From: Psychroserpens damuponensis
Lineage (GTDB): Bacteria; Bacteroidota; Bacteroidia; Flavobacteriales; Flavobacteriaceae
Length of the DNA: 64,000 nucleotides
Assembly: GCF_000826655.1 (NCBI RefSeq)
Contig: NZ_JXJO01000003.1
Coordinates: 1-64,000 of the forward strand
Reading direction: 5' to 3'
Numbering within the stretch: position 1 is the stretch's first letter; each line of letters begins with the position of its first letter. Positions 2,260 to 64,000 of the stretch are shown here, one piece after another. Position numbers and translations under genes: made by a program. The notes under the pieces were generated by a model. It saw nothing but the letters and a program-made list of their open reading frames with translations, had not been told where the DNA came from and searched no databases.

Positions 2260-2901
2260 TTAAATTGTTATAAGGTTTTCAATAAGTTGTGTATTCACTT
2301 CATGAGTGCCACTAAATGGAATGACCTCTAAGTTAGTTCCAAATAAAATTTCAGCTTTTTCAAGTTCCTCCCTCATACGTTCATCGCTGAGGTATTCATC
2401 TTTATCACCATAAATGAGTTTAGCTTTTCCGTAGAAAAAATCAAAATCTTCTTTTTTTAATTCCTTCGGAATTCCACCAGAATGTAACACTAATTGAGAA
2501 CATTGTAGTTGCCGTTTTGCCACATATCGCATGGCAACACTTACGCCTTGAGAGTAGCCTAAAACGATTAAATTTTTCTCTTCGGAAATTTGCTCTCTCT
2601 CAAAAATAGAATCAAAATAAGCCATTATATTTTCGGTTTCCATTGCTGTGTTTTCTCGTGTTAACCAACTGGCTCCAATATGTTTAAATTTTGGAGTGCT
2701 ATAATATTTACTTTGAGCTTGAGGAGCAATAATATAATTTTCATCAGGATGTAAACCTTTAAAATATCTAATAAAATATCTGCTTAAATAACCCATGCCA
2801 TGACAAACAAACCAAACATTTTTGGTTGATGAGGTGAGTTCATTCAAGGTCGTATAACTATTAGTAATGGTATAAGAAATTTCGGTTTCTGTAGAATTCA
2901 T
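2260..2901 (-). CDS. Alpha/beta-hydrolase (carboxylesterase-like)
   Basis: Small alpha/beta-hydrolase of 213 residues. The nucleophile elbow GYSQG, a late Asp in YGDKDEY and a His in GTHEV would form the Ser-Asp-His triad; an oxyanion-side motif CHGMG lies near the N-terminus. GYSQG is typical of the phospholipase/carboxylesterase branch. I prefer the ATG at 2901 over the upstream one at 2931, because the longer start would run through a TATCTTTG promoter box that reads the other way. The gene is divergent from menI-menF-menD. No canonical MenH (SHCHC synthase) is present among the men genes here, so this neighbour is a possible but unproven stand-in. There is no signal peptide, so it is cytoplasmic. 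Confidence 0.75.
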   Translation of the reverse strand: MNSTETEISYTITNSYTTLNELTSSTKNVWFVCHGMGYLSRYFIRYFKGLHPDENYIIAPQAQSKYYSTPKFKHIGASWLTRENTAMETENIMAYFDSIFEREQISEEKNLIVLGYSQGVSVAMRYVAKRQLQCSQLVLHSGGIPKELKKEDFDFFYGKAKLIYGDKDEYLSDERMREELEKAEILFGTNLEVIPFSGTHEVNTQLIENLITI

Positions 2902-2905
2902 TTTG

Positions 2906-2913
2906 TATCTTTG
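2906..2913 (+). promoter_or_regulatory. Candidate -7 promoter box for menI-menF
   Basis: TATCTTTG matches the Bacteroidota -7 consensus TAnnTTTG and lies 38 bp upstream of the menI ATG. No clear -33 TTTG partner was found, only TTTC at about the right distance. Confidence 0.5.
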
Positions 2914-2951
2914 TAGTTCTAAAAAATTCATGCTAAAAATACAGTAATTCT

Positions 2952-3374
2952 ATGCAATTATCTAAACAAGATGTGCTCGATAAAGCAAATGCTGCCAGTA
3001 AAAATACATTGATGGAAACCTTAAATATTGAAATGGTAGATTATGGTGAAAATTTTCTGGTAGCTAGAATGCCAGTGACATCAAGAGTCTATCAGCCAGA
3101 TGGCGTTTTGCATGGAGGAGCAACTGCAGCTTTAGCCGAAAGTGTTGGTAGTTTTGCATCACATATTTTTTTAGATATAGAAAATAAATTTGTTCGTGGT
3201 TTAGAGATTACAGCCAATCATTTAAAAAGTGTAAAAAATGGCTATGTATATGCCAAAGCCACTTTTTTGCATAAAGGTAGAACCACCCAATTGTTAGACA
3301 TTAGAGTAACAGATGATAACGATAATTTGGTGTCAATTTGCAGATTATCAACGATAGCACTTCCTAAAAAGTAG
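2952..3374 (+). CDS. menI: Hotdog-fold thioesterase, probable 1,4-dihydroxy-2-naphthoyl-CoA thioesterase
   Basis: PaaI/YdiI-family thioesterase of 140 residues. The segment GVLHGGATAALAESVGS carries the HGG turn and the catalytic Glu seen in E. coli YdiI (MenI), and the later LEITANHLKS segment also resembles YdiI closely. By family knowledge it hydrolyses DHNA-CoA to DHNA, the step after MenB. The gene is the first of a block with menF (6-bp gap) and menD, which supports the menaquinone role over a general acyl-CoA thioesterase. Cytoplasmic, normal length. Confidence 0.85.
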   Translation: MQLSKQDVLDKANAASKNTLMETLNIEMVDYGENFLVARMPVTSRVYQPDGVLHGGATAALAESVGSFASHIFLDIENKFVRGLEITANHLKSVKNGYVYAKATFLHKGRTTQLLDIRVTDDNDNLVSICRLSTIALPKK

Positions 3375-3380
3375 TAGAAA

Positions 3381-4514
3381 ATGATTCAGAAAGAATTTTT
3401 TCTAAATCTAGAAAAACATCACAAATCTCAATTACCTTTTGTCGCTTTTAGAAAGCCAAATGATTCGTGTGTAAAGGCAATTCTTCAGGAAGACAAAGCC
3501 ATTCATACAGTTACCGATTTTACCGAAAGCGGTTTTGTGTTTTCGCCTTTTGATTCTAAAAAAGATACAATCCTTTTTCCGTTAGAACATTCAAAAACGA
3601 TGTCTTATTCGTTACCATTATCTTCGGAAATATCTAAAACTTCAAATTTTGAGCCTGAAATAAAATCATTTGATAGCTCAAAAGATAATCGTGAAAATCA
3701 TTTGAAATTAGTTGATAGCGGAATTAAAGCCATTCAAAACGGAAGATTTGAAAAAGTAGTATTATCAAGGGTTGAAGACGTGCCAATTTCCGAAGAAAAT
3801 CCTATAAAGACATTTCAAACTTTATTAAAAAACTATACAACTGCATATGTGTATTTATGGTATCACCCAGAAATTGGGCTTTGGTTGGGAGCAACACCAG
3901 AAACACTATTGCATTTAGAAGGTCAGCGTCTTAAAACGATGTCTTTGGCAGGAACACAACCTTATAAAGGAGAAATGGACGTTGTTTGGGACGAAAAAAA
4001 CACCGTTGAACAACACCTAGTTACCAATTTTGTTTTACAATCATTACAGCCTTTAGTAGATCAACTAAAAGCTACAAATGCAAAAACAATTAAAGCCGGA
4101 CAGTTATTGCACTTGCAATCTCGTATTGATGGTGTTTTAAAATCTAAAAATTTAAAACCTATAATAGAAGCTTTACATCCGACGCCTGCAGTTTGTGGAC
4201 TTCCTAAAACAGTGGCGAAAGATTTTATATTAGAACATGAACATTATAATAGAGAGTTTTACACTGGTTTTTTGGGAGAACTTAATATTAAAACTTCAAA
4301 AATAAGAAATACAAATCGTCGTAATGTAGAGAATAACGCTTATAATTTAGTAAAAACGAGTAGCGCGTTATTTGTGAATTTGCGATGTATGCAAATTAAA
4401 GATGATCGTATTTTAATTTATGTTGGAGGCGGTGTAACCAAGCAATCTACTCCTGAGAAAGAGTGGGAGGAAACCGTGAGTAAAACTCGTACAATGATGC
4501 AAGTTATAGCTTAG
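3381..4514 (+). CDS. menF: Isochorismate synthase
   Basis: Chorismate-binding enzyme of 377 residues that converts chorismate to isochorismate, the entry step of menaquinone synthesis. Visible family motifs are VVLSRVEDV, the WLGATPETLL strand, the HPTPAVCGLPK segment, the EHYNREFYTGFLGE region that binds Mg and substrate, and the C-terminal YVGGGVT. The weak N-terminal third is normal for MenF/EntC. Its position directly behind menI and before menD makes MenF far more likely than a siderophore EntC. Two copies of the TTCCGAAG octamer (3622, 3788) lie inside the gene. Confidence 0.92.
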   Translation: MIQKEFFLNLEKHHKSQLPFVAFRKPNDSCVKAILQEDKAIHTVTDFTESGFVFSPFDSKKDTILFPLEHSKTMSYSLPLSSEISKTSNFEPEIKSFDSSKDNRENHLKLVDSGIKAIQNGRFEKVVLSRVEDVPISEENPIKTFQTLLKNYTTAYVYLWYHPEIGLWLGATPETLLHLEGQRLKTMSLAGTQPYKGEMDVVWDEKNTVEQHLVTNFVLQSLQPLVDQLKATNAKTIKAGQLLHLQSRIDGVLKSKNLKPIIEALHPTPAVCGLPKTVAKDFILEHEHYNREFYTGFLGELNIKTSKIRNTNRRNVENNAYNLVKTSSALFVNLRCMQIKDDRILIYVGGGVTKQSTPEKEWEETVSKTRTMMQVIA

Positions 4515-4631
4515 TTTTTAAGTTAGATAAGTCTATTTATTTACAAAAGTTCTATAACGAAAAGTAGTTTGATATGTTCTCATTATAACAAATATAAAGC
4601 GCTAGTTACTTCATAAATTGATACTCTATTT

Positions 4632-4664: not shown

Positions 4665-4671
4665 CAGTAAG

Positions 4672-6432: not shown

Positions 6433-6520
6433 ATTTGTGACGCTCCAACTTTTTGTGTGTCTAATAATTGTCTATATTTATAGAGCAAAAGATGTATTAA
6501 CCTAAAAAATAACAACTAAG

Positions 6521-7047: not shown

Positions 7048-7884
7048 ATGATAAGATTAGGAGATTACAATATACTAGAAATAATACGAGAAAGTGAGCA
7101 AGGCATTTATTTGTCAGATGCAGAGGATAATGAGGTTTTACTTCCAAATAGGTACGTACCAGAAACCTTTCAAATTTGGGAAAAACTAGAAGTTTTCGTG
7201 TATTTAGATAACGAAGAACGTCTTGTAGCTGTTACAGATGACCCTTATATTATTCGCGACGATTTTGCATTACTGCGCTGTAACCAAGTTACCGAACATG
7301 GTGCATTTTTAGATTGGGGAATGGTTAAAGAACTTTTCTGTCCGTTTAGTGAGCAAGCGTTCAAAATGAAAGCTGGTGGTTGGTATCTCGTGCATTGCTA
7401 TCTCGATGAAAAAACAGATAGATTGGTGGCTTCTAGTAAAACAAATCGATTTTTAGATAATAATGACCTAACGGTTCAGCAATTTGATGAAGTTGAGTTG
7501 ATTGTGTCTCATCCGTCAGATTTAGGAATGAATGTTATAGTAAATAACCAACATTTAGGTTTGATTTTTTCCGAAGATATATTTAAAGATGTTAGTGTAG
7601 GAGATCGCTTAAAAGGCTTTGTTAAAAAAGTACGAAATGATAATAAATTAGATATCGTGCTTGGTAAAATTGGTTATAGAAAAATTGAACCTAATGCAGA
7701 TTTAGTGATGCAACATCTTGAAGATAGTGCAGATGGTTTTCTTGGTCTCAATGATAAATCAAATCCTGAGGCGATTAAGCGAGAACTACAAATGAGCAAG
7801 AAAACCTTCAAAAAAGCGATTGGAACCTTGTATAAACAGCGTTTAATTACTATTGAAACCGATGGTATTAGATTACTTGATTGA
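7048..7884 (+). CDS. cvfB: S1-like RNA-binding protein of the CvfB family
   Basis: Protein of 278 residues with the CvfB/YitL layout: an N-terminal S1-like domain (GDYNILEIIRESEQGIYLSD), a second OB segment (ALLRCNQVTEHGAFLDWG), a third S1 segment (VGDRLKGFVKKVRNDNKLDIVLG), and a C-terminal winged-helix region (SNPEAIKRELQMSKKTFKKAI). Family members bind RNA, and the Staphylococcus member affects virulence gene expression; the role in Bacteroidota is not established. The last 12 bp overlap the convergent gene on the other strand. Confidence 0.85.
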   Translation: MIRLGDYNILEIIRESEQGIYLSDAEDNEVLLPNRYVPETFQIWEKLEVFVYLDNEERLVAVTDDPYIIRDDFALLRCNQVTEHGAFLDWGMVKELFCPFSEQAFKMKAGGWYLVHCYLDEKTDRLVASSKTNRFLDNNDLTVQQFDEVELIVSHPSDLGMNVIVNNQHLGLIFSEDIFKDVSVGDRLKGFVKKVRNDNKLDIVLGKIGYRKIEPNADLVMQHLEDSADGFLGLNDKSNPEAIKRELQMSKKTFKKAIGTLYKQRLITIETDGIRLLD

Positions 7885-8301
7885 TACTGGCAAATGCTTT
7901 AGCACTCTTTTAAAAACGATATCCATACCTTCATAGATATTATCAAAACTGATGTTGCTTGATGCGCAGTAATGACTTTCAATTTCAGCGTTCATTCGTC
8001 CGGCTTCATTATGACTTACAATGCCATAAGCTACTAAATTTGGGAAAATAGATTTTACTTCGTTAGTTTCTATTAATTCTATAGAGTATGAGTTTATTCT
8101 ATTAGAAATAAGCCCAAAAGGTTTCGTGTTTCCGAAGTAATTAAGAAGATCGTGAACAATTTTTCTACCCGAATTTAAGTCTAAATGAATGCCTTCATTA
8201 AATTCGGCTACTGCCATATTATTAAAAAAGTGTAATGTTCCTGCAGCAGAGGTTTCTTGCTTTACAATTTGTGACGCAAGGTTTGATTTTGTAATTGTCA
8301 T
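7873..8301 (-). CDS. Conserved hypothetical protein, possibly STAS/SpoIIAA-like
   Basis: Soluble protein of 142 residues with no signal peptide or membrane helix. The strand-helix pattern (LHFFNNMAVAEFNEGIHLDL, then HDLLNYFG, then PFGLISNRINSYSIE) and the GLISNR turn resemble the small STAS-like proteins common in Flavobacteriaceae, but I cannot name a family with confidence. It is convergent with cvfB, overlapping by 12 bp. A TTCCGAAG octamer copy (8130) falls in its FG codons. Confidence 0.6.
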   Translation of the reverse strand: MTITKSNLASQIVKQETSAAGTLHFFNNMAVAEFNEGIHLDLNSGRKIVHDLLNYFGNTKPFGLISNRINSYSIELIETNEVKSIFPNLVAYGIVSHNEAGRMNAEIESHYCASSNISFDNIYEGMDIVFKRVLKHLPVSIK

Positions 8302-10487: not shown

Positions 10488-11393
10488 ATGTTTACAAAAA
10501 TAAAGCCATGGCTTTCTGCTTTTAGATTACGCACCTTGCCGCTTTCTGTATCTGGGATTATTGTTGGTTCTTGTTTTGCCTACTATAATGGGAAGTTTGA
10601 CTGTCTCATTATGATCATTGCTATTTTATTAACGATAGCATTGCAAATCCTTTCAAATCTTGCCAATGATTATGGAGACGGAATTAGAGGTACAGATAAC
10701 GACAATAGAATAGGACCAGAGCGTGCTATTCAAAGTGGAGCAATTACTCCCGAAGACATGTTTGATGGTATTAAAAAGAATATACTCATTGTTATTATTC
10801 TCACAGTAGGACTCGTATTCACATCATTTGGTAGTAAATATTTAATATATACTTTAGTGTTTTTCGTACTAGCAGGTTGCTCTGTTTATGCTGCAATAAA
10901 TTATACCGTAGGAAACTCTCCATACGGCTACAAAGGTTTAGGAGATGTGTTCGTTTTTACTTTCTTCGGAATAGTAAGCGTCGTAGGTAGTTATTTTTTG
11001 TACACAAAACAAATAGATCATCATGTTTGGTTACCAGCAATCTCTATTGGTTTGTTAAGTATGGGAGTTTTAAATCTCAACAATATGAGAGATATCGAGT
11101 CTGATAAATTATCAAATAAGGAAACTCTTGCTGTCAAATTAGGAAAAAGTAAAGCTAAGACTTATCATATCGTTCTTATTGTTTTAGCCATGGTAATAGC
11201 TATTTTGTTTTCAATTTTATACTATTCTAGTCCTTTCAATCTTTTGTTTTATATCGCTTTTGTTCCCTTAACGATTCATCTAAATAAAGTCGTAAAAGCA
11301 ACGAATCCAATAGATTATGATCCACAATTAAAAGTACTCTCGTTAACCACATTTTTGTTTTCCATACTCCTTGCTATAGGTTATATTTTATGA
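10488..11393 (+). CDS. menA: 1,4-dihydroxy-2-naphthoate polyprenyltransferase
   Basis: UbiA-family membrane prenyltransferase of 301 residues that attaches the polyprenyl tail to DHNA to give demethylmenaquinone. The two Asp-rich motifs are visible: NLANDYGDGIRGTDND and NNMRDIESDK. About eight or nine hydrophobic helices follow each other along the chain. A TTG directly precedes the chosen ATG. It is co-transcribed with menB. Confidence 0.95.
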   Translation: MFTKIKPWLSAFRLRTLPLSVSGIIVGSCFAYYNGKFDCLIMIIAILLTIALQILSNLANDYGDGIRGTDNDNRIGPERAIQSGAITPEDMFDGIKKNILIVIILTVGLVFTSFGSKYLIYTLVFFVLAGCSVYAAINYTVGNSPYGYKGLGDVFVFTFFGIVSVVGSYFLYTKQIDHHVWLPAISIGLLSMGVLNLNNMRDIESDKLSNKETLAVKLGKSKAKTYHIVLIVLAMVIAILFSILYYSSPFNLLFYIAFVPLTIHLNKVVKATNPIDYDPQLKVLSLTTFLFSILLAIGYIL

Positions 11394-16503: not shown

Positions 16504-17556
16504 ATGATACAAGCATCATTTAAACATTACAAACTCCAGTTTAAAAACCCAAGCGGAACTTCTCGAGGCATACTAAAAATCAAAGACACTTGGTTTATCA
16601 TTTTAACAAAAGATGGCAAAACTGGTATTGGAGAATGTGGCATGTTCAAAGGCCTTAGCGTTGATGATACACCAAATTATGAGCAAAAACTACAATGGGC
16701 TTGTGACAATATCAACTTAGGTTTAGAAAAACTTCTTGTTGAGCTTATCCATTTTCCGAGCATTCAAATAGGCTTAGAGATGGCGTTTAAATCTCTACAA
16801 AGTGAGAATGGTTTTCATTTGTTTCCGTCGAGTTTTACTCTAAACCGAGCGCCAATTTCAATAAACGGATTGATTTGGATGGGAGACAAAGCCTTCATGA
16901 AACAGCAAATCAAAACTAAATTAGATGCTGGTTTCACGTGTATAAAATTAAAAATTGGTGCTATAGATTTTTCTTCGGAAATGGAACTTCTTAAATCTAT
17001 TCGTCAAGAATTTTCAGCAAAAGATATAGAACTTCGCGTTGATGCTAATGGTGCATTTGCTCCTAATGAAGCATTAGAAAAACTAAAACACTTGTCTGCA
17101 TTTGATTTACATTCTATAGAGCAACCTATAAAACAAGGACAATGGGAAGCTATGGCCAGATTATGTGAAAGTACGCCTTTGCCTATTGCTTTAGACGAAG
17201 AGTTGATTGGTATCGTTTCCGAAGAAAAAAAGAAAGAACTTTTGTCGGTTATTAATCCGCAATACATCATTTTAAAACCAACTTTGGTAGGCGGATTTAA
17301 AGGTAGCGAATCATGGATTGCCTTAGCAGAAAATGCAAATATCAAATGGTGGATTACAAGCGCACTAGAAAGTAATATTGGACTAAATGCCATTGCACAA
17401 TGGACATTTACACGACATAATAAAATGCCACAAGGTCTAGGCACAGGAAGTTTGTTTTCTAATAATTTTGATTCGCCATTAATTGTAAAAAATGGTACAT
17501 TGCAATACGAAAATAATCGAGATTGGAACACCTCACTTCTCGATATTAAACTCTAA
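16504..17556 (+). CDS. menC: o-Succinylbenzoate synthase
   Basis: Enolase-superfamily enzyme of 350 residues that dehydrates SHCHC to o-succinylbenzoate. The catalytic Lys pair is visible in CIKLKIG and in IILKPTLVGGF. Metal ligands lie in RVDANGAF, HSIEQP and ALDEELIG. It precedes the CPBP protease gene by 5 bp and is in the same run as menE. Two TTCCGAAG octamers (16973 and 17217) lie inside. Confidence 0.93.
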   Translation: MIQASFKHYKLQFKNPSGTSRGILKIKDTWFIILTKDGKTGIGECGMFKGLSVDDTPNYEQKLQWACDNINLGLEKLLVELIHFPSIQIGLEMAFKSLQSENGFHLFPSSFTLNRAPISINGLIWMGDKAFMKQQIKTKLDAGFTCIKLKIGAIDFSSEMELLKSIRQEFSAKDIELRVDANGAFAPNEALEKLKHLSAFDLHSIEQPIKQGQWEAMARLCESTPLPIALDEELIGIVSEEKKKELLSVINPQYIILKPTLVGGFKGSESWIALAENANIKWWITSALESNIGLNAIAQWTFTRHNKMPQGLGTGSLFSNNFDSPLIVKNGTLQYENNRDWNTSLLDIKL

Positions 17557-18754: not shown

Positions 18755-19816
18755 ATGACTCCAACATTTGATAAAGTTCATTTAAAATTTAAACTCAACG
18801 GAAACAATTATGACCATGAGGATCTTAAAGAAGTTGCTTATAGTTTGGTGAAAGAAGGTGAGCCTTTTGAAAAGAGTACAGGAGACTTCTTGTTAGATTG
18901 GTTAAGCGAAAAAGACTTTGTGTTAGCGCAAACCTCTGGATCTACAGGAACACCAAAAATAATAAAGCTAAACAAGCAGGCTATGGTCAACTCCTGTATT
19001 GCCACAGGTAATTATTTGGGTTTAGAACCTGGTGATACATCATTACATTGTTTGCCCACGCAATATATTGCCGGTAAAATGATGTTGGTACGTGCTATGA
19101 TTTTAGGTTTAGAGGTAGATCTTGTTGAGCCAACTTCTCAACCTATATTTGATTATGAAAAGAAATATAGCTTTTGCGCTATGTTGCCCATGCAATTAAA
19201 ATCTACATTAAGTTATTTGCATAATGTAGATGTTATGATTGTAGGTGGATCATCGGTATCTAAAAATCTTATAGCATCTACTCAAAACTTAAAAACTAGA
19301 GTATATGCAACGTACGGTATGACAGAAACTGCTACGCATATAGCTTTGAAACCATTAAACAACGGACAACAGCAACCACATTTTGAAATTTTACCAAATG
19401 TGACCATTTCTCAAGATGACAGAGAATGTTTGGTGATTGATGCACCCAAAGTAGCATCAACACAAGTGGTAACTAATGATATTGTGAAATTACACTCTAA
19501 AACCACTTTTGAGTGGATTGGTCGTGTTGATAATGTTATAAATTCGGGTGGATTAAAATTATTTCCAGAGCAAATAGAAGAGCAATTAAAAGGCCTTATT
19601 AAAACACAATTTTTTATTGCTTCAGAGCCTAATGACACTCTAGGAGAGCAACTTATATTAGTTATTGAAGCCGAAGATACAACATTGGATAAAACGGTGT
19701 TTAACGGATTAGCAAAACTTGAAATTCCGAAGAAAACATATGCAGTACCTCAATTTGTAATGACAGATACAGGGAAAATACAGCGTAAAGAGACGCTAAA
19801 AAAAATTAAAGCTTAG
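18755..19816 (+). CDS. menE: O-succinylbenzoate-CoA ligase (compact)
   Basis: ANL-superfamily adenylate-forming enzyme of 353 residues, about 100 shorter than most MenE because the N-terminal part is reduced. The P-loop TSGSTGTPK, ATYGMTETATH, GRVDNVINSGG hinge and C-terminal TGKIQRKE with the catalytic Lys are all present. It activates o-succinylbenzoate for MenB. The context with menC supports MenE. The last 11 bp overlap the convergent MFS gene. Confidence 0.92.
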   Translation: MTPTFDKVHLKFKLNGNNYDHEDLKEVAYSLVKEGEPFEKSTGDFLLDWLSEKDFVLAQTSGSTGTPKIIKLNKQAMVNSCIATGNYLGLEPGDTSLHCLPTQYIAGKMMLVRAMILGLEVDLVEPTSQPIFDYEKKYSFCAMLPMQLKSTLSYLHNVDVMIVGGSSVSKNLIASTQNLKTRVYATYGMTETATHIALKPLNNGQQQPHFEILPNVTISQDDRECLVIDAPKVASTQVVTNDIVKLHSKTTFEWIGRVDNVINSGGLKLFPEQIEEQLKGLIKTQFFIASEPNDTLGEQLILVIEAEDTTLDKTVFNGLAKLEIPKKTYAVPQFVMTDTGKIQRKETLKKIKA

Positions 19817-45844: not shown

Positions 45845-47257
45845 CTATTTTTTAATAAACTTAAATACGGTATTAGCATTGTTAATTTTTAGATAGTAGA
45901 TACCTGTTGTTAATTCTGAAACATCCAATGCGTCATGTAATTGCACGTGTTGAGATGTTATGATGTTACCAAGACTATTAAAAACAGTAATTTTTGAGGT
46001 TTCAGTCATTCCTGTAAAATAGAGTTTATCCTGTGTTGGGTTAGGAAACATAGTGATGTTAGCTTGCTTAATATCTGATACCGATAATACTATGTTTTGG
46101 TTGTTAAACATATTTACTGCATCGTCATTATAAGCTATGGTTGAGATGTCTAAATCGCCATCATTTTCAAAGTCGGCAAATGTAATGGTATAGGCTTGAC
46201 TTTGAGTAGCATCAATAATTTGTTCTGGTCCAAAACCACCAACACCATCGCTTTTAAACCAAACGATGTCGTTTCCAGCACCAGAAGCTGCACTGGTCAA
46301 AATAAAATCATTTAAATTATCGTTATCTAAATCTCTTAAATCTAAACATGCAGGATTGGAGATACTTGTACTTATAACAGTTTCTGCATAGGTTGCCGTA
46401 CCAGGAGATATTTCGGTGCGTTTAAACCAAGAGGCATCTCCTGTAATATCTGTCACTAAAATATCTAAGCTAGAATCGTTATCGACATCTTCTGCCATGA
46501 TACTAAAAATATAGTCTTTAGTATTTAGAGACACTACATTGGTATCTGCTGTGAAATTACCGTCGCCATCATTATAGAATACTTCAATTCTACAATCATT
46601 TGGGACACCATAAGCAATTGCATTACCAATGACACTATCAATATCACCATCAAAATCTATATCTTTCATGGCAAAGGCTCCTGGATTTATAATGGTATTG
46701 TTAATAATATTTTTTGTTCCAAAATTTCCTGAGCCATCATTTGCAAACCAAATGACTTCATTTCCATTATACGCTGCAACAGCAACATCTAAAGTTGTAT
46801 TATTATCTATGGTTCTAACGTAAACTTGACCTGGACCATTAATCGTAGCGCTAATTATTTGAGCAGCGCCAAAATTTCCTAGACCATCATTGGCGAACCA
46901 TACTAAGGTACCGTCACCAGATGATGTAGATACGACATCATTAAATCCATTTCCGTTTATATCGGCGATTGCAACGCCTCCTGCGTTACTTAATAATCCA
47001 ATAGGAGTTGATTGTATGTTAAAATTACCTGCACCATCATTTTTTAACCAATATACAGTGCCTCCAATGGTTGTGCTTACTACTAAATCAGGAAAAGCGT
47101 CATCATCAATTAATCCAGATGCGATGTTATAAGGCGCGTTTCCACCAGGTTGAGGCAACGCAATAGACTGCGTTTTATTAAATATAGTTTGGGAATAACC
47201 ATTAAAATTTCCGAAGAAAATTAAAATACTATAGAATAAAAAATTTTGTAAGTTCAT
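45845..47257 (-). CDS. FG-GAP/VCBS repeat secreted protein with T9SS sorting domain (A)
   Basis: 470 residues from the ATG at 47257 (the longer start is TTG), giving a signal peptide MNLQNFLFYSILIFFGNFNG. The body has about six repeats of the type GLIDDDAFPDLVVST, IADINGNGFNDVVST, DIDFDGDIDSVIG (calcium-binding D-x-D-x-D-x-D loops) alternating with VWFANDGLGNFG, as in FG-GAP/VCBS beta-propellers. The end (ITMFPNPTQDKLYF...GIYYLKI...FKFIKK) is a type A T9SS sorting domain. A surface or secreted adhesin or matrix role is likely. A TTCCGAAG copy (47209) lies in the signal region. Confidence 0.88.
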   Translation of the reverse strand: MNLQNFLFYSILIFFGNFNGYSQTIFNKTQSIALPQPGGNAPYNIASGLIDDDAFPDLVVSTTIGGTVYWLKNDGAGNFNIQSTPIGLLSNAGGVAIADINGNGFNDVVSTSSGDGTLVWFANDGLGNFGAAQIISATINGPGQVYVRTIDNNTTLDVAVAAYNGNEVIWFANDGSGNFGTKNIINNTIINPGAFAMKDIDFDGDIDSVIGNAIAYGVPNDCRIEVFYNDGDGNFTADTNVVSLNTKDYIFSIMAEDVDNDSSLDILVTDITGDASWFKRTEISPGTATYAETVISTSISNPACLDLRDLDNDNLNDFILTSAASGAGNDIVWFKSDGVGGFGPEQIIDATQSQAYTITFADFENDGDLDISTIAYNDDAVNMFNNQNIVLSVSDIKQANITMFPNPTQDKLYFTGMTETSKITVFNSLGNIITSQHVQLHDALDVSELTTGIYYLKINNANTVFKFIKK

Positions 47258-50766: not shown

Positions 50767-51206
50767 TTGTTTGTGTTTTTTAAGTTATAAATTTGTTGAC
50801 ACTATTTAAATTGTAATAAAAATTAGCAATTTTTAGCCATTTAAAATTGTGTATTTAAATTCAAGGTAAAGTTAAGAGTTTTGATTGTTTTTTTAGAAGG
50901 ATTTTTTCTTTTATTACTTCGGAAATTGGAACCTTTAATTTTTTGTCTATTAATTGAAAGTGTAGGCTCTAAACAGGTAAATATACGGTAACATTTTATG
51001 CTCTTATTAGTTATTTTTCAGATTTATAAATCAACACCCCAAAATCAATAACATTCAATTTAGTGATGACCGTTAGTGTTTTATAGACGGTTTTTTAGAG
51101 TTGTAAAGATGATAGAAGTGATGTAAAACATAATTTTTTGACTCTTTGTTAATTTGGATAATTCTAATGCCATTGGTCAAAAGAACCTATAGAAAAACGA
51201 TTATAA
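50767..51206. other. 440-bp intergenic region without a recognisable gene
   Basis: No credible ORF, tRNA or clear hairpin was seen. It separates the divergent fumC and 51207 genes, so it should hold both promoters, but I found no perfect TAnnTTTG box. One TTCCGAAG octamer (50917-50924) lies here, one of only two copies outside genes. Confidence 0.5.
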
Positions 51207-52449: not shown

Positions 52450-54879
52450 CTATCCTTCAAAATCAAAATTATCTCCACCAGAATCACCGCCTCGGTTATC
52501 ACGTTGACGCGATTTTTGTTGATTAAATCTATAGGTGAAAGAGACATTAAAACTACGTTGTCTCCATTGAAATTCACTGTCGTTAATAAAAGTATCTGTT
52601 GTAGAAGTTGATTGTCGTTTTCTAGAATTAAATAAATCTCTAACATTTAAAGCAAGAGAGGCTCTGTCTCCTAATAAATCTTTGCTAAATGCCATATCTG
52701 TTGATAAAATACCTTTTTGCGTACTTTGAGCATCTTCTCTTGGTCCACGATAGAAAACACGAGTTTGCCAATCTATGTCTCCTGGTAACGTATATTTATT
52801 ATTGATTCTTGCAAACCAACTAAAATTTTCTGCCCCAAAATCGGTGCCTTCATATATACCTTCGGTTTTATTTTTAAATAGGTTAATGTTTCCGTTAAGG
52901 TTCCATTTTTTTGAAGGTCTATAGGTTAAGGTAAATTCAAATCCGAAACGATCTTCTGTAGCTAAATTTATAGGAGAACGTCTAATAATAGGAACTTCTG
53001 TTCCTCCAACGACAGTGGTTTCTCCAGTGTCTAATGTTACAAACGTGAAAACATCTGTAGCTCGTTGATAATAGATAGAAGAGTTAAGTGTTATTTTTCC
53101 GAAGCGATTTAAATACCCAAAATCAAATGAGTTTGAGTAACTAGGATCTAAATCTGGGTTACCTTGAAAAATATTTGTGGCACTACTTCTAGAAGGAAAC
53201 GGATTAATGAATCTTGATCTTGGACGTCTAATTCTACGATTATAACCTAAGGTTAAATTTTGTTTTTCGTTAATTTCAAAACCTAAATTTATTGTAGGGA
53301 AAAGTCCTGTGTAATTTTTACGTTGTAAATCGTTAGTAGTTATTTGGTTAACAGTAACACGAGATTGCTCCATACGAAGTCCTAATAAATAGGAGAATTT
53401 ATCTTTTACCTTACTTCCAAATTGAGTGTATAAAGCGTTTACGTACTGACGAAAAATTAAGTTATTACTAACATCTGTATCTAAAACAAAATCACCATTT
53501 TCATTAAACTCTAGAGTATAATCTGTATCTGTTTCTTCGTAATTTCCTCTAAAACCAAATTCAAAACTACTTTTTTCACCAATAGGACGTGTATAGTCTA
53601 ATTGTAAAAGAACTTCATCTTGGTTTTCAATTGTTCTTACACGCTCGGCAGCACTGCCATCCTGTGCAATGATAGATTTTTCTTCTTCACCATTATCTTC
53701 ATACTGAAAATCTATAGTTAAACGATGTTGACTATTGCCATCAAATTGTTTGTCAAAATTAACGGCATATTGTCGTGTTGCATCTGTTTCTTCTTCAGGA
53801 TCTAAACGAAAGGAATCTGAGATAAGATTGTTGTTACTATCAAATTCTTGAATTATATTTGAATTATCATTGTTTTGATCACTATCTCTGTATACAAAAG
53901 AGGTCACTACAGATGTCGTTTCATTGATATACCATTCTACCCCTAGATTAGTGTTAAAACCTTTACTTTGTCTGTCAAATTCTCGTGATTCTTTAAAAAA
54001 GGTACTTGGATCATCACCATTAAAATACTCTGTATTTGTAGTCGCATTTCCTGGAGATTCTCTATATCGATATCCAGATGTATTAAAGAAATTGAAATCT
54101 CCTGTTCTGTAATTTATATTTCCAGAAACACCGGCTTCTGTAGGATCTCCTGCGCTTAAAGTAACTGCACCATTAAGTCCTTGAAGTTTACTACGACGCA
54201 AAATAATATTTAGAATTCCGGCTGTGCCTTCGGCATCATAACGAGCAGAAGGTGATGTAATCACCTCAACACGTTCAATAGATTCGGCTGGTAATTGTCT
54301 AAGTGCGTCTGTAGAGTTTAAACCAACTAATCCTGATGGTTTACCGTTAATAAGTATCGTCACGTTATCATTTCCACGTAGAGCAACATTACCTTCAACA
54401 TCAACCGAAACCGATGGCACGTTGTCTAGCACATCGCTTACAGTACCACCTCTAACAGTTAAATCACTTCCAACATTATAAATCTTTTTATCTAATTTGA
54501 TTTCTACTGTTGTTTTTTCGGCAATAACTTCAACAGCATCAAGAGCTTCTAAATTTAGAGATAATGAGACTGTACCTAAATTAATATCTTTAGAAAGTGA
54601 TTTATTATCATAACTTTTTGTTTTATATGAAAGGTATTCAACTTTCACATCATAAACACCAGGTGCTACTTCAATTTTAAATTCGCCTTTAGCATCTGTG
54701 ATGCCTCCAGTAACAGTTTTATTTAATTTTTTGCTAAAAAGTGAAATGGTAGCATATTCTAATGGATAATTTCCATCAGCATCAAGCACAGTTCCTGAAA
54801 CGGTAATTTCGTTTTGTGCGATACCAAATGCAAAACTAAAAAAGGATAATAATAGTAGATAAGTAGTTTTTTGTAACAT
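52450..54879 (-). CDS. TonB-dependent outer-membrane receptor (CarboxypepD_reg/OMP_b-brl_3 type)
   Basis: 809 residues from the ATG at 54879, giving a signal peptide MLQKTTYLLLLSFFSFAFG. A carboxypeptidase-regulatory-like domain (GTVLDADGNYPLEYATISL...) spans residues ~25-110. The plug follows (TVSDVLDNVPSVSVDVEGNVALRGNDNVTILINGKPSG), then a beta-barrel with Gly-Phe/aromatic strands to FNVSFTYRFNQQ. The type lacks a SusC signature and usually has no SusD partner; the substrate is unknown. The extreme C-terminus is a short charged Gly/Asp tail after the last strand. Confidence 0.9.
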   Translation of the reverse strand: MLQKTTYLLLLSFFSFAFGIAQNEITVSGTVLDADGNYPLEYATISLFSKKLNKTVTGGITDAKGEFKIEVAPGVYDVKVEYLSYKTKSYDNKSLSKDINLGTVSLSLNLEALDAVEVIAEKTTVEIKLDKKIYNVGSDLTVRGGTVSDVLDNVPSVSVDVEGNVALRGNDNVTILINGKPSGLVGLNSTDALRQLPAESIERVEVITSPSARYDAEGTAGILNIILRRSKLQGLNGAVTLSAGDPTEAGVSGNINYRTGDFNFFNTSGYRYRESPGNATTNTEYFNGDDPSTFFKESREFDRQSKGFNTNLGVEWYINETTSVVTSFVYRDSDQNNDNSNIIQEFDSNNNLISDSFRLDPEEETDATRQYAVNFDKQFDGNSQHRLTIDFQYEDNGEEEKSIIAQDGSAAERVRTIENQDEVLLQLDYTRPIGEKSSFEFGFRGNYEETDTDYTLEFNENGDFVLDTDVSNNLIFRQYVNALYTQFGSKVKDKFSYLLGLRMEQSRVTVNQITTNDLQRKNYTGLFPTINLGFEINEKQNLTLGYNRRIRRPRSRFINPFPSRSSATNIFQGNPDLDPSYSNSFDFGYLNRFGKITLNSSIYYQRATDVFTFVTLDTGETTVVGGTEVPIIRRSPINLATEDRFGFEFTLTYRPSKKWNLNGNINLFKNKTEGIYEGTDFGAENFSWFARINNKYTLPGDIDWQTRVFYRGPREDAQSTQKGILSTDMAFSKDLLGDRASLALNVRDLFNSRKRQSTSTTDTFINDSEFQWRQRSFNVSFTYRFNQQKSRQRDNRGGDSGGDNFDFEG

Positions 54880-55473: not shown

Positions 55474-55815
55474 TTAAATAATGTCTAATATGTTTTGTGG
55501 CGGACGACCAATTGTAGCATTCTTACCGTTGATAACAATTGGACGTTCTATTAATTTAGGATGCGTAATCATAGCCTTTAAAATTTGAGCATTTGTTAGC
55601 GATTTACCTTTAAAATCAGATTTCCAAATGGCCTCGTTTTTTCTAACGAGTTGAATAGGTTCAATTTTTAGAAGAGAAATAATAGTTTTTAATTTTTCTT
55701 CGGAAATTGGCTCATCCAGATACTTTATCACTTCAAATTCTTTGCCAGAATTTTCTAAAAGGGCTAAGCCTTCTCTAGATTTTGAGCATCTTGGGTTGTG
55801 AAGTATTGTAATCAT
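55474..55815 (-). CDS. arsC: Arsenate reductase (ArsC/Spx family, glutaredoxin-coupled type)
   Basis: 113 residues, thioredoxin fold. The N-terminal HNPRCSKSRE holds the catalytic Cys, and the C-terminal LIERPIVINGKNATIGRPP matches ArsC. Distinction from YffB-like relatives is not certain, and no arsenic operon surrounds it, so arsenate may not be the real substrate. It lies directly downstream of prfB on the same strand (36-bp gap). Confidence 0.85.
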   Translation of the reverse strand: MITILHNPRCSKSREGLALLENSGKEFEVIKYLDEPISEEKLKTIISLLKIEPIQLVRKNEAIWKSDFKGKSLTNAQILKAMITHPKLIERPIVINGKNATIGRPPQNILDII

Positions 55816-57131: not shown

Positions 57132-59540
57132 ATGAAACATCATCTCTTTTGTGCGCTCGCTTTTTTAATGATTTTAAATGGATTTTCTCAAAAATTAGAG
57201 TCTAAAACATTGAAAGATTATAACGGTTTTTTTAACTTTCATTATGAAGCATCTACAGACAAAATTTATCTTGAAGTTAAAGACTTAAACAAAGAATTTT
57301 TATATGTTAATTCTCTAGCAACAGGAGTGGGCTCAAATGATATTGGTTTAGATAGAGGGCAAATAGGGCAGGAGCGATTGGTTGCATTTAAAAAAGCTGG
57401 AAACAAATTATTATTAGTACAGCCCAACCTAAAATTTAGAGCCATTACAGATAATCAATTAGAGAAGACAAGTATTGAGCAAGCCTTTGCCAAATCTGTA
57501 CTTTATGGGTTTAAAATTATAGAAAATAATAATGGTGTTTATACCATTGACTTTACGCCATTTTTACTTCAAGATGCACATGGTGTAGAAAATCGCTTAA
57601 AAGGCGAAGGAAGTTATAAGTTAGACTTAAGCAAGAGTGCCTTATCATTGGAGCGAACAAAAGCGTTTCCAAAAAATGTAGAATTTGAAGCTTTATTGAC
57701 GTTTAAAGGAAGTCCTAAAGGCCAAAATATTAAAAGTGTGACGCCAACATCAACATTAGTTAGCGTCATACAACATCATAGTTTTATTGAACTGCCAGAT
57801 GATGGTTATAAAATGCGTGAGTTTGATGTACGTAGTGGAGCCATTTCAATGTCTTTTTTAGATTATGCATCACCAATACAGGAGCAAATTAAAAAGCGAT
57901 ATATTATTCGTCATCGTTTAGAAAAGAAAAATCCAAAGGCTCAAATCAGTGACGCTATAGAACCTATTATTTATTATCTCGATCCTGGAACTCCAGAGCC
58001 TGTGCGATCTGCATTATTAGAAGGCGCTCGTTGGTGGAATCAAGCCTATGAGTCTATAGGTTTTAAAGATGCATTTCAGGTTAAAATGTTACCCGACGAT
58101 GCCGATCCAATGGATTGTCGTTATAATGTCATCCAGTGGGTACATCGTTCAACTAGAGGCTGGAGTTATGGTGCAAGTGTTGTAGACCCAAGAACAGGAG
58201 AAATCATCAAAGGTCATGTGAGTTTAGGGAGTTTACGAATTCGACAGGATTTTATGATTGCGCAAGCCTTAATGAACAAACCGTTTGCAGAGCGTGACGA
58301 TAATTATCAACCTATGTTAGAGATGGCTTTGGCTAGAATTCGCCAGTTGAGTGCTCACGAAGTTGGTCACACCATTGGCTTTGCGCACAATTTTGCTGCG
58401 AGTGCAAATGGTAGAGCTTCAGTTATGGATTATCCACATCCTACAATTTCTATTCTCGACGGAAATATCAACTTCTCAAACGCTTATGCTGTTGGAATAG
58501 GAGCTTGGGATAAGGTGACTGTAGCCTATTCGTATTCGGAATTTAATAACAATGAAAACGAAAACGCGAAGTTAAACGCTATTCTTGAAACTGCTAATAC
58601 AACAGGTTTGCAGTTTATCTCAGATAGTGATGCTAGAGCACAAGGAGGAGCTCATGCGTTTGCACATCTTTGGGATAATGGAAAAAGTGCTTCCGAAGAG
58701 TTGAAAAATGTATTAGAAGTAAGAGCACAAGCTATTTCAAATTTTTCTAAGGATAATATTCGTCAAGGCGAACCGTATTCGGTTTTAGAAGATGTGTTTG
58801 TGCCTTTATATTTTTTCCATCGTTTTCAAGTAGAAGCTGCGACAAAAGTTATTGGAGGCTTAGATTATAATTACGCAGTAAAAGGTGATAATCAAACCAT
58901 TGTAGAACCTGTTGATGTCAACATTCAAAAGGAAACCTTAACTCAGGTTTTAAACACGATTTCTGCTGAGGCGTTAGCAATTCCGAAGAAAACATTACAA
59001 TTGTTTCCACCACGAGCTTACACGTACAGCAGAACTCGAGAATCATTTAAAGGAAAAACAGGAGTGGCTTTTGATGCTATGAGTACAGCTGTGACAGCAA
59101 GTGATATGACATTGAAACTATTGTTACATCCGCAACGAGCCAATAGAATCATTCAGCAAAAAAGTTTAGATGAAAAGCAATTGGGATTTGATGAGCTGTT
59201 GAAACAGGTTTTAAATAATTCCTTCGGATTAACATATGATGATGCTTACCTAAATGAAATTCAACAACTAATTAACGAGCGTGTATTGATACATATGATG
59301 AATTTAGCCGTGAGTAATCAATCCATTTTTCAAGTAAAAGCAAAAGCGAATAATGCAATTAACACGTTAATTAGAGATTATCTATCTAACAAGAAAAAAC
59401 CTTCGCTATATGCTTCACAATATAGATTGCTAATAAGAGAATTTAGAGAACATCCAGAACAATTTAAAATAGAAAATGCTCCAAACATACCAGATGGTTC
59501 ACCAATTGGAAGTGATTTTTGCAATTATAATGAGAATTAA
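57132..59540 (+). CDS. Secreted zinc-dependent metalloprotease (DUF5117/DUF4953 type)
   Basis: 802 residues with a signal peptide (MKHHLFCALAFLMILNGFSQ). The metal motif HEVGHTIGFAHN (HExxHxxGxxH) lies at about residue 409. The N-terminal half (FNFHYEASTDKIYLEVKDLNKEFLYVNSL..., YFLDP-type strand) matches DUF5117, with DUF5118/4953 segments around it. This is a Bacteroidota-typical large metalloprotease of unknown substrate. It has no sorting domain, so it is probably periplasmic. It is followed 3 bp later by the aldolase gene. Confidence 0.88.
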   Translation: MKHHLFCALAFLMILNGFSQKLESKTLKDYNGFFNFHYEASTDKIYLEVKDLNKEFLYVNSLATGVGSNDIGLDRGQIGQERLVAFKKAGNKLLLVQPNLKFRAITDNQLEKTSIEQAFAKSVLYGFKIIENNNGVYTIDFTPFLLQDAHGVENRLKGEGSYKLDLSKSALSLERTKAFPKNVEFEALLTFKGSPKGQNIKSVTPTSTLVSVIQHHSFIELPDDGYKMREFDVRSGAISMSFLDYASPIQEQIKKRYIIRHRLEKKNPKAQISDAIEPIIYYLDPGTPEPVRSALLEGARWWNQAYESIGFKDAFQVKMLPDDADPMDCRYNVIQWVHRSTRGWSYGASVVDPRTGEIIKGHVSLGSLRIRQDFMIAQALMNKPFAERDDNYQPMLEMALARIRQLSAHEVGHTIGFAHNFAASANGRASVMDYPHPTISILDGNINFSNAYAVGIGAWDKVTVAYSYSEFNNNENENAKLNAILETANTTGLQFISDSDARAQGGAHAFAHLWDNGKSASEELKNVLEVRAQAISNFSKDNIRQGEPYSVLEDVFVPLYFFHRFQVEAATKVIGGLDYNYAVKGDNQTIVEPVDVNIQKETLTQVLNTISAEALAIPKKTLQLFPPRAYTYSRTRESFKGKTGVAFDAMSTAVTASDMTLKLLLHPQRANRIIQQKSLDEKQLGFDELLKQVLNNSFGLTYDDAYLNEIQQLINERVLIHMMNLAVSNQSIFQVKAKANNAINTLIRDYLSNKKKPSLYASQYRLLIREFREHPEQFKIENAPNIPDGSPIGSDFCNYNEN

Positions 59541-60560: not shown

Positions 60561-60561
60561 A

Positions 60562-61488: not shown

Positions 61489-61524
61489 AATTACAATGAT
61501 TTAAATTTTATTTAAAGATATAAA

Positions 61525-61848
61525 TTATTTAAACAAATCCATACCAGGAATATTTGGCATACCTTCTTTTGCAACAGCAGCTACTTCAGTCTCGTGTAGA
61601 GTTGTTGCACGAGCTATAGCTTTGTTAATTGTAAGAATCAAATAATCTTCTAACATATCTTTATCTTGAAGTAATTCGTCATCTATTTCAATAGATTTCA
61701 GCGTACGATTTGCAGTAATAGTAACTTTTACCTTCTCGTCATGACTTTTCATGTCAATTAAAACGGTGTGTAAACGTTCTTTCGTTTCCTCAACTTTTTT
61801 TTGAGCATCTTTGAGTTTGCCCATCATTCCCATCATATCTCCAAACAT
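61525..61848 (-). CDS. YbaB/EbfC family nucleoid-associated protein
   Basis: 107 residues from the ATG at 61848 (the longer start adds a hydrophobic leader not seen in the family). It starts [21 protein letters not shown], a helix rich in Met, and continues with [25 protein letters not shown]. YbaB proteins form tweezer-like dimers and coat DNA. The C-terminus [11 protein letters not shown] is typical. Confidence 0.88.
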
Positions 61849-61875
61849 AATAATCTGTATTAAATATTTAAACAA

Positions 61876-61883
61876 CAAAATTA
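61876..61883 (-). promoter_or_regulatory. -7 promoter box of the YbaB gene
   Basis: TAATTTTG on the minus strand matches TAnnTTTG, 27 bp before the chosen start. Confidence 0.45.
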
Positions 61884-61944
61884 CTAAATTGCAACGCTTT
61901 TAAAAAGAAAAAATGCTATCGCATTAGTTTCCGAAGATATATAT

Positions 61945-64000
61945 ATGAAGAAAACCATTGAAGCTCCTGTAGCTAGAATAATTCCGAAGGAATTAGAAAT
62001 CCATAACGACTTAAGAATAGATAATTATTTTTGGCTTAACCAAAGAGACGATCAAAATGTGTTAGATTATCTCAATGCAGAAAATGAGTATTATGAGAAA
62101 GAAACAGCGCACACCAAAGAATTTGAGGTGCAGCTTTTTGAAGAAATGAAAGCTAGAATCAAGGAAGATGATTCTTCAGTTCCTTATAAATACAATGGGT
62201 ATTGGTACATTGTTAGATATGAAAAAGGGAAAGGTTACCCTATTTATACACGAAGAAAAGAAACGCTAGATGCTGAAGAAGAATTGCTTTTTGATTGTAA
62301 TAAAATGGCAGAAGGCCATGCTTATTTTAAATTAGTTGGGTTAAGTGTGAGTCCAGATAATACTATGATTACTTTTGGTATGGATCTCACTGGTAGACGA
62401 CAATATACATTACAAATTAAGAGCTTGATTACAAATGAGGTGTTTTCAGATGCCATTGAAAATACGACAGGTTCTTCTACTTGGGCAAATGATAATTCAA
62501 CCTTGTTTTATGCTAAAAAAGATGAGCAAACCTTAAGGTCTAATGAAATTTATAAGCATAAAATTGGTGATTCTGAAAAGCAAGATGTGTTAGTTTTTAC
62601 AGAAGAAGATGATACCTTTGGCGCAGCAGTCTATAAAACAAAATCTAGAAAATATATTGTTATTGCTTGTTACAGTACATTAACAAATGAATTTCATATT
62701 TTAAATGCAGACACTCCTGATGAGCCTTTTAACTTATTTCAACGACGAATTCGAGGACTAGAATACAGTATATCACATTTTGGTGATCACTTTTATATGT
62801 TGACAAATAAAGACGAAGCCATCAATTTTAAATTGATGAAAACATCAGAAACAAAAACTGAAATTGATAATTGGGTTGAGGTAATCGCACATCGTGAAGA
62901 GGTTTTGTTAGAAGATATTGAGATATTTAAAGATTATTTAGTAATCAACGAGCGTACCAATGGCTTAAATGAGATTAGAATCACACGTTGGGATAAAACC
63001 GAAGATTATTACTTTCCTTTTGATAATGAAACGTACACCGCAAATACTGGAACCAATGTTGATTTTGATACCGAAATTTTAAGATTTAGTTATAATTCGC
63101 TAACTAATCCAGCTTCGGTAATTGATTTCAATATGCGCACCAAAGAACGAGAAATCAAAAAAGAGCAACAAGTAATAGATGCTAGTTTTGACAAACATAA
63201 TTATACATCTGAGCGTATTTGGGCAACTGCCAATGATGGTACAAAAATCCCAATGTCTATTGTTAGACGAAAAGACACTAAGCTCAATGGTAATGCACCC
63301 TTACTTCAATATGCCTACGGAAGTTATGGTTCTACAATAGATCCTTACTTCTCTACCATACGATTAAGTTTATTAGATAGAGGTTTTATTTATGTAATAG
63401 CTCATGTTAGAGGAAGCGAGTACTTAGGCAGAGATTGGTATGAAAACGGAAAACTCCTAAAAAAGAAGAATACGTTCACCGATTTTATAGATTGCTCGAA
63501 ACATTTAATTGAGAACAATTATACTTCTGCAGCACATTTATACGCAATGGGAGGAAGTGCAGGAGGTTTATTAATGGGAGTAATCCTTAATGAAGCTCCA
63601 CAATTATATAATGGTATCATATCACAAGTACCTTTTGTGGATGTTATTTCTACAATGCTAGATGATACAATCCCTTTAACAACAGGAGAATATGACGAAT
63701 GGGGAAATCCTAATGATAAAGACTATTATGAGTATATAAAGAGTTATTCTCCTTATGATAATGTTAAGGCTCAAGATTATCCACATTTACTGGTTACTGC
63801 TGGTTTAAATGATTCTCAAGTACAATATTGGGAGCCAGCAAAGTGGGTAGCAAAGCTAAGAACATTAAAGAAAAATAATAACAAATTATTTTTTAGTACT
63901 AATATGGATGCTGGTCATGGTGGAGCTTCAGGAAGATTCGAATCTCTTAAAGAAGATGCTCAAGAATATGCATTTTTACTGGATTTAGAAGGTATTTTGG
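61945..64000 (+). CDS. ptrB: Oligopeptidase B, S9A serine peptidase (3' end outside window)
   Basis: 685 codons are visible; the frame runs off the window, probably about 20-25 codons before the end. The N-terminal beta-propeller part (YNGYWYIVRYEKGKGYPIYTRRK, TFGMDLTGRRQYT) is followed by the alpha/beta-hydrolase domain: nucleophile motif YAMGGSAGGLLMG, Asp in VTAGLNDSQVQYWEP, and His in NMDAGHGGASGR. Members cleave short peptides after basic residues. No signal peptide is seen. Two TTCCGAAG octamers (61929 in the leader, 61982 in the 5' coding region) lie close together. Confidence 0.93.
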   Translation, partial: MKKTIEAPVARIIPKELEIHNDLRIDNYFWLNQRDDQNVLDYLNAENEYYEKETAHTKEFEVQLFEEMKARIKEDDSSVPYKYNGYWYIVRYEKGKGYPIYTRRKETLDAEEELLFDCNKMAEGHAYFKLVGLSVSPDNTMITFGMDLTGRRQYTLQIKSLITNEVFSDAIENTTGSSTWANDNSTLFYAKKDEQTLRSNEIYKHKIGDSEKQDVLVFTEEDDTFGAAVYKTKSRKYIVIACYSTLTNEFHILNADTPDEPFNLFQRRIRGLEYSISHFGDHFYMLTNKDEAINFKLMKTSETKTEIDNWVEVIAHREEVLLEDIEIFKDYLVINERTNGLNEIRITRWDKTEDYYFPFDNETYTANTGTNVDFDTEILRFSYNSLTNPASVIDFNMRTKEREIKKEQQVIDASFDKHNYTSERIWATANDGTKIPMSIVRRKDTKLNGNAPLLQYAYGSYGSTIDPYFSTIRLSLLDRGFIYVIAHVRGSEYLGRDWYENGKLLKKKNTFTDFIDCSKHLIENNYTSAAHLYAMGGSAGGLLMGVILNEAPQLYNGIISQVPFVDVISTMLDDTIPLTTGEYDEWGNPNDKDYYEYIKSYSPYDNVKAQDYPHLLVTAGLNDSQVQYWEPAKWVAKLRTLKKNNNKLFFSTNMDAGHGGASGRFESLKEDAQEYAFLLDLEGIL

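Follow-up and report, generated by a model that had tools for sequence, protein, structure and literature searches.

Why should 64 kb of a flavobacterial genome carry one eight-letter word 28 times, when base composition predicts about one copy? The stretch in question, referred to here as the window, comprises the 64,000 nucleotides at positions 1 to 64,000 of contig NZ_JXJO01000003.1 of Psychroserpens damuponensis, and the word is the octamer TTCCGAAG. An original prediction, made from the letters alone, compared it to HIP1 and to uptake words. HIP1 of cyanobacteria is a palindromic, very abundant dispersed octamer; uptake words are known in the Pasteurellaceae and Neisseriaceae, and the reason for their existence has long been debated. 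Here we show that the over-representation of TTCCGAAG is real, both in the window and in the genome. From its flanks, conservation and distribution we consider it probable, though short of assured, that TTCCGAAG, together with the A-rich tail on its 3′ side, serves as a DNA-uptake signal word, comparable to the uptake signal sequences (USS) and DNA uptake sequences (DUS) of those families, that would have arisen separately in the Bacteroidota.

Results

An octamer in excess throughout the genome

A recount returned the 28 exact copies already reported, from a first start at 2464 to a last end at 61989; on the plus strand 16 read TTCCGAAG and 12 read CTTCGGAA. At the window's G+C content of 32.7%, Markov models of orders 0 to 3 expect 1.17, 1.07, 0.71 and 1.59 copies, an 18 to 39-fold excess that agrees with the earlier estimates of about 33% G+C, about 1.2 expected copies and about 20-fold enrichment. 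Among the 8-mers with at least six occurrences in the window, TTCCGAAG has the top z score at orders 1, 2 and 3. The prediction rises to 5.1 copies at order 4 and 14.9 at order 5, but such models already include parts of the word. The enrichment is not peculiar to the window: the whole genome (G000; 3,945,764 bases in 106 contigs) holds 1,520 copies (779 on one strand and 741 on the other), and the reversed, uncomplemented word used as control has 175 (72 and 103). In a 382,575-base sample of G000 DNA (own DNA below), made up of contig C1, 100 kb of contig C2 and the window, 163 copies compare with 7.9 (order 3) or 29.2 (order 4) expected. The density in G000 and the richest of the other genomes is one copy per 1.4-2.6 kb.

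The most prosaic explanation would be that codon usage, amino-acid content or mutation bias produces the word as a by-product. In a mechanical gene model of the own-DNA sample, open reading frames (ORFs) cover 88.2% of the bases and hold 144 of the 163 copies; the 19 outside amount to 11.7%, against 11.8% non-coding DNA. Genic copies lie in both orientations (67 and 77), and all six classes of phase and orientation are occupied (45, 41, 33, 18, 4 and 3), which bears out the claim that every coding phase and both strands are used. When synonymous codons were rearranged so that protein and codon usage were preserved, the genes contained 6.0 +/- 2.7 copies (maximum 13 in 60 shuffles) instead of the real 144. 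A codon model thus falls far short of the count, and the word is not protein-driven, as had been proposed. We found no support for a by-product: the higher Markov predictions, up to 14.9 of 28 at order 5, come from models that contain the word's parts. The poor survival of same-letter control words and the near-background counts of some congeners, both described below, also contradict this explanation, which we find scarcely credible.

A longer asymmetric motif with genus variants

The motif that contains TTCCGAAG is longer than the octamer and asymmetric, roughly T-TTCCG(A>C,T)AG-AAAA. At the 163 sites of the own-DNA sample, position −1 is T in 109 and G in 4, A occupies positions +8, +9 and +10 in 89, 104 and 117, and the A/T-rich 3′ tail fades near +16. 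We compared observed with expected counts for the 24 one-letter neighbours of TTCCGAAG in the same DNA. Those altered at position 6 were the most enriched (TTCCGCAG 23/3.0, TTCCGTAG 28/4.1 and TTCCGGAG 6/1.3, observed/expected), and an excess of 1.9 to 3.8-fold was seen for TGCCGAAG (22/5.7), TTCGGAAG (28/7.9), TACCGAAG (20/7.9), TTCTGAAG (35/18.7) and TCCCGAAG (4/2.1). Most remaining neighbours stay at or below expectation, for example TTCCGAAC with 0 against 4.5. The suggestion that the core might be shorter did not survive this comparison, as the flanks extend the motif and NNCCGAAG words other than TTCCGAAG, such as TGCCGAAG and TACCGAAG, reach no more than a 3.8-fold excess.

The same core and tail are found in 21 tiles of 20 kb from the complete chromosome of a congener (G006), with 256 copies of TTCCGAAG against 11.2 expected and enriched position-6 variants (TTCCGCAG 82/7.5, TTCCGTAG 66/7.0). 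Genomes of other genera (G322, 137/16.0; G057, 136/16.6; G285, 61/6.7) share the core and have a shorter or weaker tail (weaker in G057). Here the position-4 variant TTCTGAAG is favoured (96/20.3, 46/14.1 and 45/8.5 in the same order), with TTCGGAAG, also altered at position 4, at 64/16.0, 59/16.6 and 27/6.7; position-6 variants exceed expectation 1.5 to 3.8-fold. The balance of variants, at position 6 in Psychroserpens and at position 4 in G322, G057 and G285, differs by genus in a way that looks like sub-dialects.

Strand neutrality and outward-facing pairs

An over-represented octamer all along the chromosome might also be a Chi-like hot-spot of recombination or repair, read by enzymes of the RecBCD/AddAB type. 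Chi words favour one strand with respect to the direction of replication. On the G006 chromosome, however, the strand of TTCCGAAG does not follow GC skew over 26 tiles (rho −0.19, p 0.35), and the tiles with clear skew give 96 versus 101 sites on the G-rich strand (p 0.78), so that no replichore bias is apparent. Strand sums over 32 enriched genomes (17,251 and 17,101) say little, because contig orientation is arbitrary. Congeners with near-background counts would not be expected of a Chi-like word either, and we regard this explanation as improbable.

Spacing is close to random. With a 38-kb gap excluded, the gaps between neighbours in own DNA have a coefficient of variation of 0.86, and an exponential distribution is not rejected (Kolmogorov–Smirnov p 0.47). 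Gaps shorter than 200 bp number 17 of 160 against 13.6 expected, which is not significant. The four close pairs named in the original prediction all exist; such pairs are not clearly in excess.

Their orientation is far from random. Among 132 pairs closer than 200 bp, pooled over own, G006, G322, G057 and G285 tiles, 70 are arranged as CTTCGGAA...TTCCGAAG, with tails outward, 12 are opposite, and 29 and 21 are tandem; the outward excess has p 5e-12 against an expectation of 25%, if pairs are independent. Within 300 bp it is seen in own DNA (p 0.0012), G006 (7e-8), G322 (0.0014) and G057 (0.035), and is not significant in G285 (0.16); beyond 300 bp it fades. Of nine control words, ATTTCCGA, which overlaps TTCCGAAG, is biased 11 to 0 and GAAGAAAA, which overlaps the tail, leans 11 to 4; the other seven did not show the bias. 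A reader that grips two sites may be one explanation of the outward pairs, and none is firm.

Inverted copies in excess within 200 bp could also suggest a hairpin or transcription-terminator element. The location of the word speaks against this: copies lie overwhelmingly inside ORFs (144 of 163), only 17 of 160 gaps are below 200 bp, and most of the 17 printed pairs closer than 60 bp in own and G006 DNA are themselves inside ORFs. We consider such an element very improbable.

Sites are retained among word-sharing relatives

We aligned the window genes by codon with those of 12 relatives and scored the exact survival of TTCCGAAG, all other words of the same letters in the same alignments serving as control. 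In G006, 17 of 25 sites are exact, against 99 of 961 control words (68% versus 10%, p 2.5e-11), a difference that speaks against a by-product of composition. Survival also exceeds the control in A. luteus (9/11 versus 78/414, p 1.7e-5), G014 (10/24 versus 145/1033, p 0.001), G016 (8/19 versus 117/892, p 0.002) and G009 (7/21 versus 96/961, p 0.004). It does not differ significantly from the control in G018 (5/14; 109/645), G005 (3/20; 91/944) and G003 (1/5; 36/334), which belong to the better-stocked relatives. Word-poor relatives keep almost nothing: 1/19 in G002 (control 81/900), 1/22 in G020 (86/913), 0/18 in G013 (49/665) and 0/15 in G022 (62/722). G006 keeps more sites than G018 despite its lower DNA identity (76.3% versus 81.6%), and over 11 relatives the retained fraction follows word count with rho 0.89. 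In G013 and G022 the sites carry 3.7 mismatches on average compared with 2.3 for controls; therefore the words sit at fast-evolving, protein-variable positions.

The word is scarce in particular kinds of DNA. We surveyed 74 tiles, each of 20 kb, taken from five enriched genomes; five tiles were low outliers (Poisson tail below 0.01 against the genome median). Two adjacent own tiles cover a 38-kb glycosyltransferase/Wzt glycan cluster; a G006 tile encodes ParB_N, DUF932 and efflux genes; and of two G057 tiles one is prophage-like (AAA_24, DUF5906, N6_N4_Mtase) and the other copper-resistance-like (multicopper oxidase, AcrB/OEP efflux). Read from 5-8 proteins per tile, and with gene content surveyed in the low tiles only, all five look like acquired or exchangeable DNA.

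Sporadic distribution in one family

The 22 other genomes of the genus contain from 278 to 2,174 copies, a range of about eight-fold with G006 at the top, and several congeners are near background (for example G013, 293 against 269 for the control). Taking a genome as enriched if it has at least 500 copies and at least 2.5 times the control, we found 32 of 397 Flavobacteriaceae genomes enriched (two of them, G246 and G429, less than 80% complete), spread over 21 of 237 genera, with a highest count of 2,678. Outside the family none of 166 genomes (of 196 drawn from the order) is enriched, and none has more than 431 copies. As a side observation, some genomes in family f5 of the order show a mild enrichment at about 2-3 times the control (for example G589, G526 and G539, with 431/183, 333/116 and 359/136), which may be a faint relative of TTCCGAAG.

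The nearest named relatives tie at 96% in one protein: P. burtonensis DSM 12212, Psychroserpens sp. SPM9 and Arcticiflavibacter luteus. In named loci of about 20 kb, TTCCGAAG ranks first among 8-mers in A. luteus (15 copies), in two Psychroserpens (9 copies each) and in Ulvibacter litoralis (19 copies), but not in the loci of Olleya, Lacinutrix and Winogradskyella, which have 0-2 copies. In single 20-kb tiles, a coarse test of word rank, it comes top in G006, G322, G057 and G327, and does not in the enriched genomes G287, G409, G084, G285, G145, G158, G122, G072 and G310.

This distribution bears on the HIP1 comparison. A maintenance word of that kind would be recognised by an intracellular protein (a solitary methylase, a nucleoid protein or a mismatch-repair factor) and kept by selection or biased repair, and foreign DNA would lack it simply because it is new. 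Near-random spacing, strand neutrality, site conservation and low counts in new DNA would then look the same; the outward inverted pairs (70 of 132) could suit a protein bridging two sites, and the Dokdonia-like genus g11 has a palindromic word in 578-664 copies. Like HIP1, TTCCGAAG is an abundant, dispersed octamer occurring in all coding phases. However, it is not its own reverse complement, and its oriented A-rich tail lies on one side only, so HIP1 is the poorer of the two comparisons originally drawn and uptake words are the closer. The eight-fold range within one genus and the sporadic presence in 21 genera would also, on argument, fit gain and loss of competence better. We therefore judge a maintenance word a serious contender, albeit a rather unlikely one.

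A palindrome in Dokdonia-like genomes

A perfect 14-bp palindrome, GCTTTCGCGAAAGC, occurs 578, 664 and 609 times in the genomes G032, G286 and G437 of genus g11 (control 0), a genus tied to Dokdonia by the shared palindrome only. It is dispersed in and between mechanical ORFs (loci L037 and L160, and Dokdonia loci L085, L106 and L129). The g11 genomes checked hold few copies of TTCCGAAG (7, 5 and 10). We had considered TTCGCGAAAG as a Dokdonia dialect of TTCCGAAG; it proved to be half of the palindrome. An open-access literature search returned no paper naming both TTTCGCGAAA and Dokdonia. Six Dokdonia palindromes lie in G057:C18:82640-174379, of which a sampled 20 kb (L243, 120001-140000) is copper-resistance-like and contains one TTCCGAAG. 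This stretch may be DNA from a Dokdonia-like donor, and such words may trace the sources of islands.

Copies in the window

All 28 window copies are exact matches found by word scan. Four inverted pairs with outward tails combine a minus-strand copy with the plus-strand copy that follows it: 3622..3629 with 3788..3795, 16973..16980 with 17217..17224, 20456..20463 with 20583..20590, and 37976..37983 with 38039..38046. The other minus-strand copies lie at 2464..2471, 2580..2587, 10964..10971, 23015..23022, 29783..29790, 42625..42632, 50917..50924 and 55698..55705. The other plus-strand copies lie at 7569..7576, 8130..8137, 19725..19732, 23597..23604, 25407..25414, 36035..36042, 47209..47216, 53097..53104, 58691..58698, 58981..58988, 61929..61936 and 61982..61989.

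Discussion

In most of the features that sequence alone can reveal, TTCCGAAG appears to match the known uptake words, and it lacks the palindrome of HIP1 and the strand bias of Chi. If it is an uptake word, naturally competent Psychroserpens, and some 20 further genera of Flavobacteriaceae, would have on their surface a DNA-binding protein that prefers fragments bearing it, those with TTTCCGAAGAAAA being favoured at uptake over those with a scrambled core. Incoming DNA with the word would recombine into the chromosome more often. For that reason copies would accumulate and persist at every place where homologous DNA is exchanged; they would lie on either strand, and mostly where the protein is under weak constraint. 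Loss of competence in a lineage, or a switch to another reader, would let the words decay. We infer, in other words, that reading of the word takes place at uptake, that these species are competent, and that the build-up results from uptake drive.

The USS of Pasteurellaceae have an A/T-rich flank. TTCCGAAG resembles words such as AAAGTGCGGT in its asymmetric core of 8-10 bp and A/T-rich flank, in lying on both strands and in coding and non-coding DNA, in being conserved among relatives that share the word, and in its scarcity in DNA that looks foreign. The reverse word may also lean slightly towards the 5′ ends of genes, which would recall what is described in the accessible part of van Passel 2008 (PMC2346458). 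The differences are the phylum, the word itself and the outward-facing pairs within 200 bp, and the uptake role here is putative.

ComP is a minor pilin. It is the reader of DUS according to the available text of one paper (PMC3868556), and that of another predicts the minor pilin ComN as reader in Pasteurellaceae (PMC12616744). With the DUS of Neisseriaceae TTCCGAAG shares a genome-wide word, a sporadic presence in the family and slight genus variants, comparable to the dialects described in the accessible part of PMC3630211; word scarcity marks mobile DNA there and, apparently, here (cf. the portion available of PMC7371117). A difference may lie in the machinery: the four unusual Riemerella transformation proteins are unlike pilins as far as the accessible text of PMC8459023 describes them. 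Putative DUS have been proposed for Riemerella anatipestifer, R. columbina and F. johnsoniae, and R. columbina is reported to prefer its own DNA; in the available part of that paper (PMC7965970) these words are frequent A-rich k-mers (e.g. AAAAATAAAA, 301 versus 56), unlike TTCCGAAG. The belief that no equivalent had been described in Flavobacteriaceae is consistent with our open-access literature search: among the entries listed there was none, and the only related proposal met was that of the A-rich k-mers in PMC7965970.

Transformation of R. anatipestifer, in the accessible text of PMC8459023, needs ComEC, DprA, ComF, RecA and the four unusual proteins, among which are a CarboxypepD_reg outer-membrane protein (RS04915), a DUF5689 surface protein (RS04920) and an HHH protein. 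G000 carries ComEC, DprA and a protein with two HHH matches. It also encodes a protein of 926 residues (L224:6631-9411) that matches CarboxypepD_reg and, weakly, Plug; a DUF5689 lipoprotein (L224:9392-10873) adjoins it.

Several points weigh against an uptake role. Our search of the literature found no experiment on uptake or transformation in these species. The L224 pair are putative counterparts of RS04915 and RS04920, recognised by their domains and adjacency only. ComEC is present in 316 of 330 near-complete family genomes, DUF5689 in 309 of the 330, and DprA in all 11 genomes tested; being so widespread, they leave the sporadic word unexplained, and they are permissive evidence only. ComEC presence is likewise too widespread to discriminate the word-rich genomes. 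The 14 near-complete family genomes with no ComEC match have word/control ratios of 0.3-0.9, and the absence of word-rich genomes among them (0/14) is not significant, given how few genomes are word-rich. The retained fraction of sites also tracks overall identity (rho 0.81 over the same 11 relatives), so relatedness plays a part, yet the control words show the effect of relatedness alone. An intragenic gradient of orientation, of the Pasteurellaceae type, is weak: p is 0.017 in G006 and 0.025 in five genomes combined, and it is not present in G000 (p 0.89). Finally, the DUF5689 lipoprotein (counterpart of RA0C_RS04920) was considered as the reader and rejected, as its type does not follow word count: the G000 protein is 86% identical to that of word-poor G002 and 32% to that of word-rich G006, and G345, word-rich with 830 copies, is absent from the genomes matched for DUF5689.

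This lipoprotein is itself extremely variable, 25-99% identical within the genus, G000 having a rare type common to G002 (86%) and G020 (62%). EttA, in contrast, is 92-99% identical to that of G000. The lipoprotein is apparently exchanged or under diversifying pressure. A second DUF5689 protein (L222, G000:C16:272759-273250), whose G000 copy has a type IX secretion system sorting tail, is present, within the genus, in 8 of the 10 genomes richest in the word and in none of the 13 poorest. We did not take it for the reader: its carriers include several of the closest relatives of G000; neither G008 nor G009, with 858 and 958 copies, yields a second match; and outside the genus most word-rich genomes show a single DUF5689 match. 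Clade membership may explain its pattern. A small membrane protein beside the lipoprotein, compared over 23 genus genomes, had no clear link to the word, and the ComEC neighbourhood (LpxB, NlpC/P60, thioredoxin, peptide transporters, DPP-IV) offered no candidate reader. One contrast within genus g50 is suggestive, as a single case: G075, with 91 words, has no ComEC or DUF5689 match and a DprA match spanning only positions 81-209 of 212, and G300, with 516, has ComEC, DUF5689 and DprA.

A more detailed picture can be offered tentatively, as a possibility we hold below even odds. Flavobacteriaceae would have evolved a self-recognising uptake system separately from the pilin-based ones of Pasteurellaceae and Neisseriaceae, using TTTCCG(A/C/T)AG-AAAA with genus dialects and outward pairs. 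DNA would be imported by TonB-receptor-like and surface-lipoprotein machinery of the Riemerella type, with a separate palindrome serving Dokdonia-like genomes.

If TTCCGAAG is an uptake word, it would be a third separate case, in another phylum and sporadic within one family, which would make the debate over such words testable by comparison. It would show which gene switches as the word appears or fades, and whether such words act as a mating barrier or are a by-product of a receptor. The word may also help to trace foreign islands. Its presence in donor DNA would provide a practical handle for transforming strains that are resistant to genetics, and its distribution would tell us which DNA marine flavobacteria exchange.

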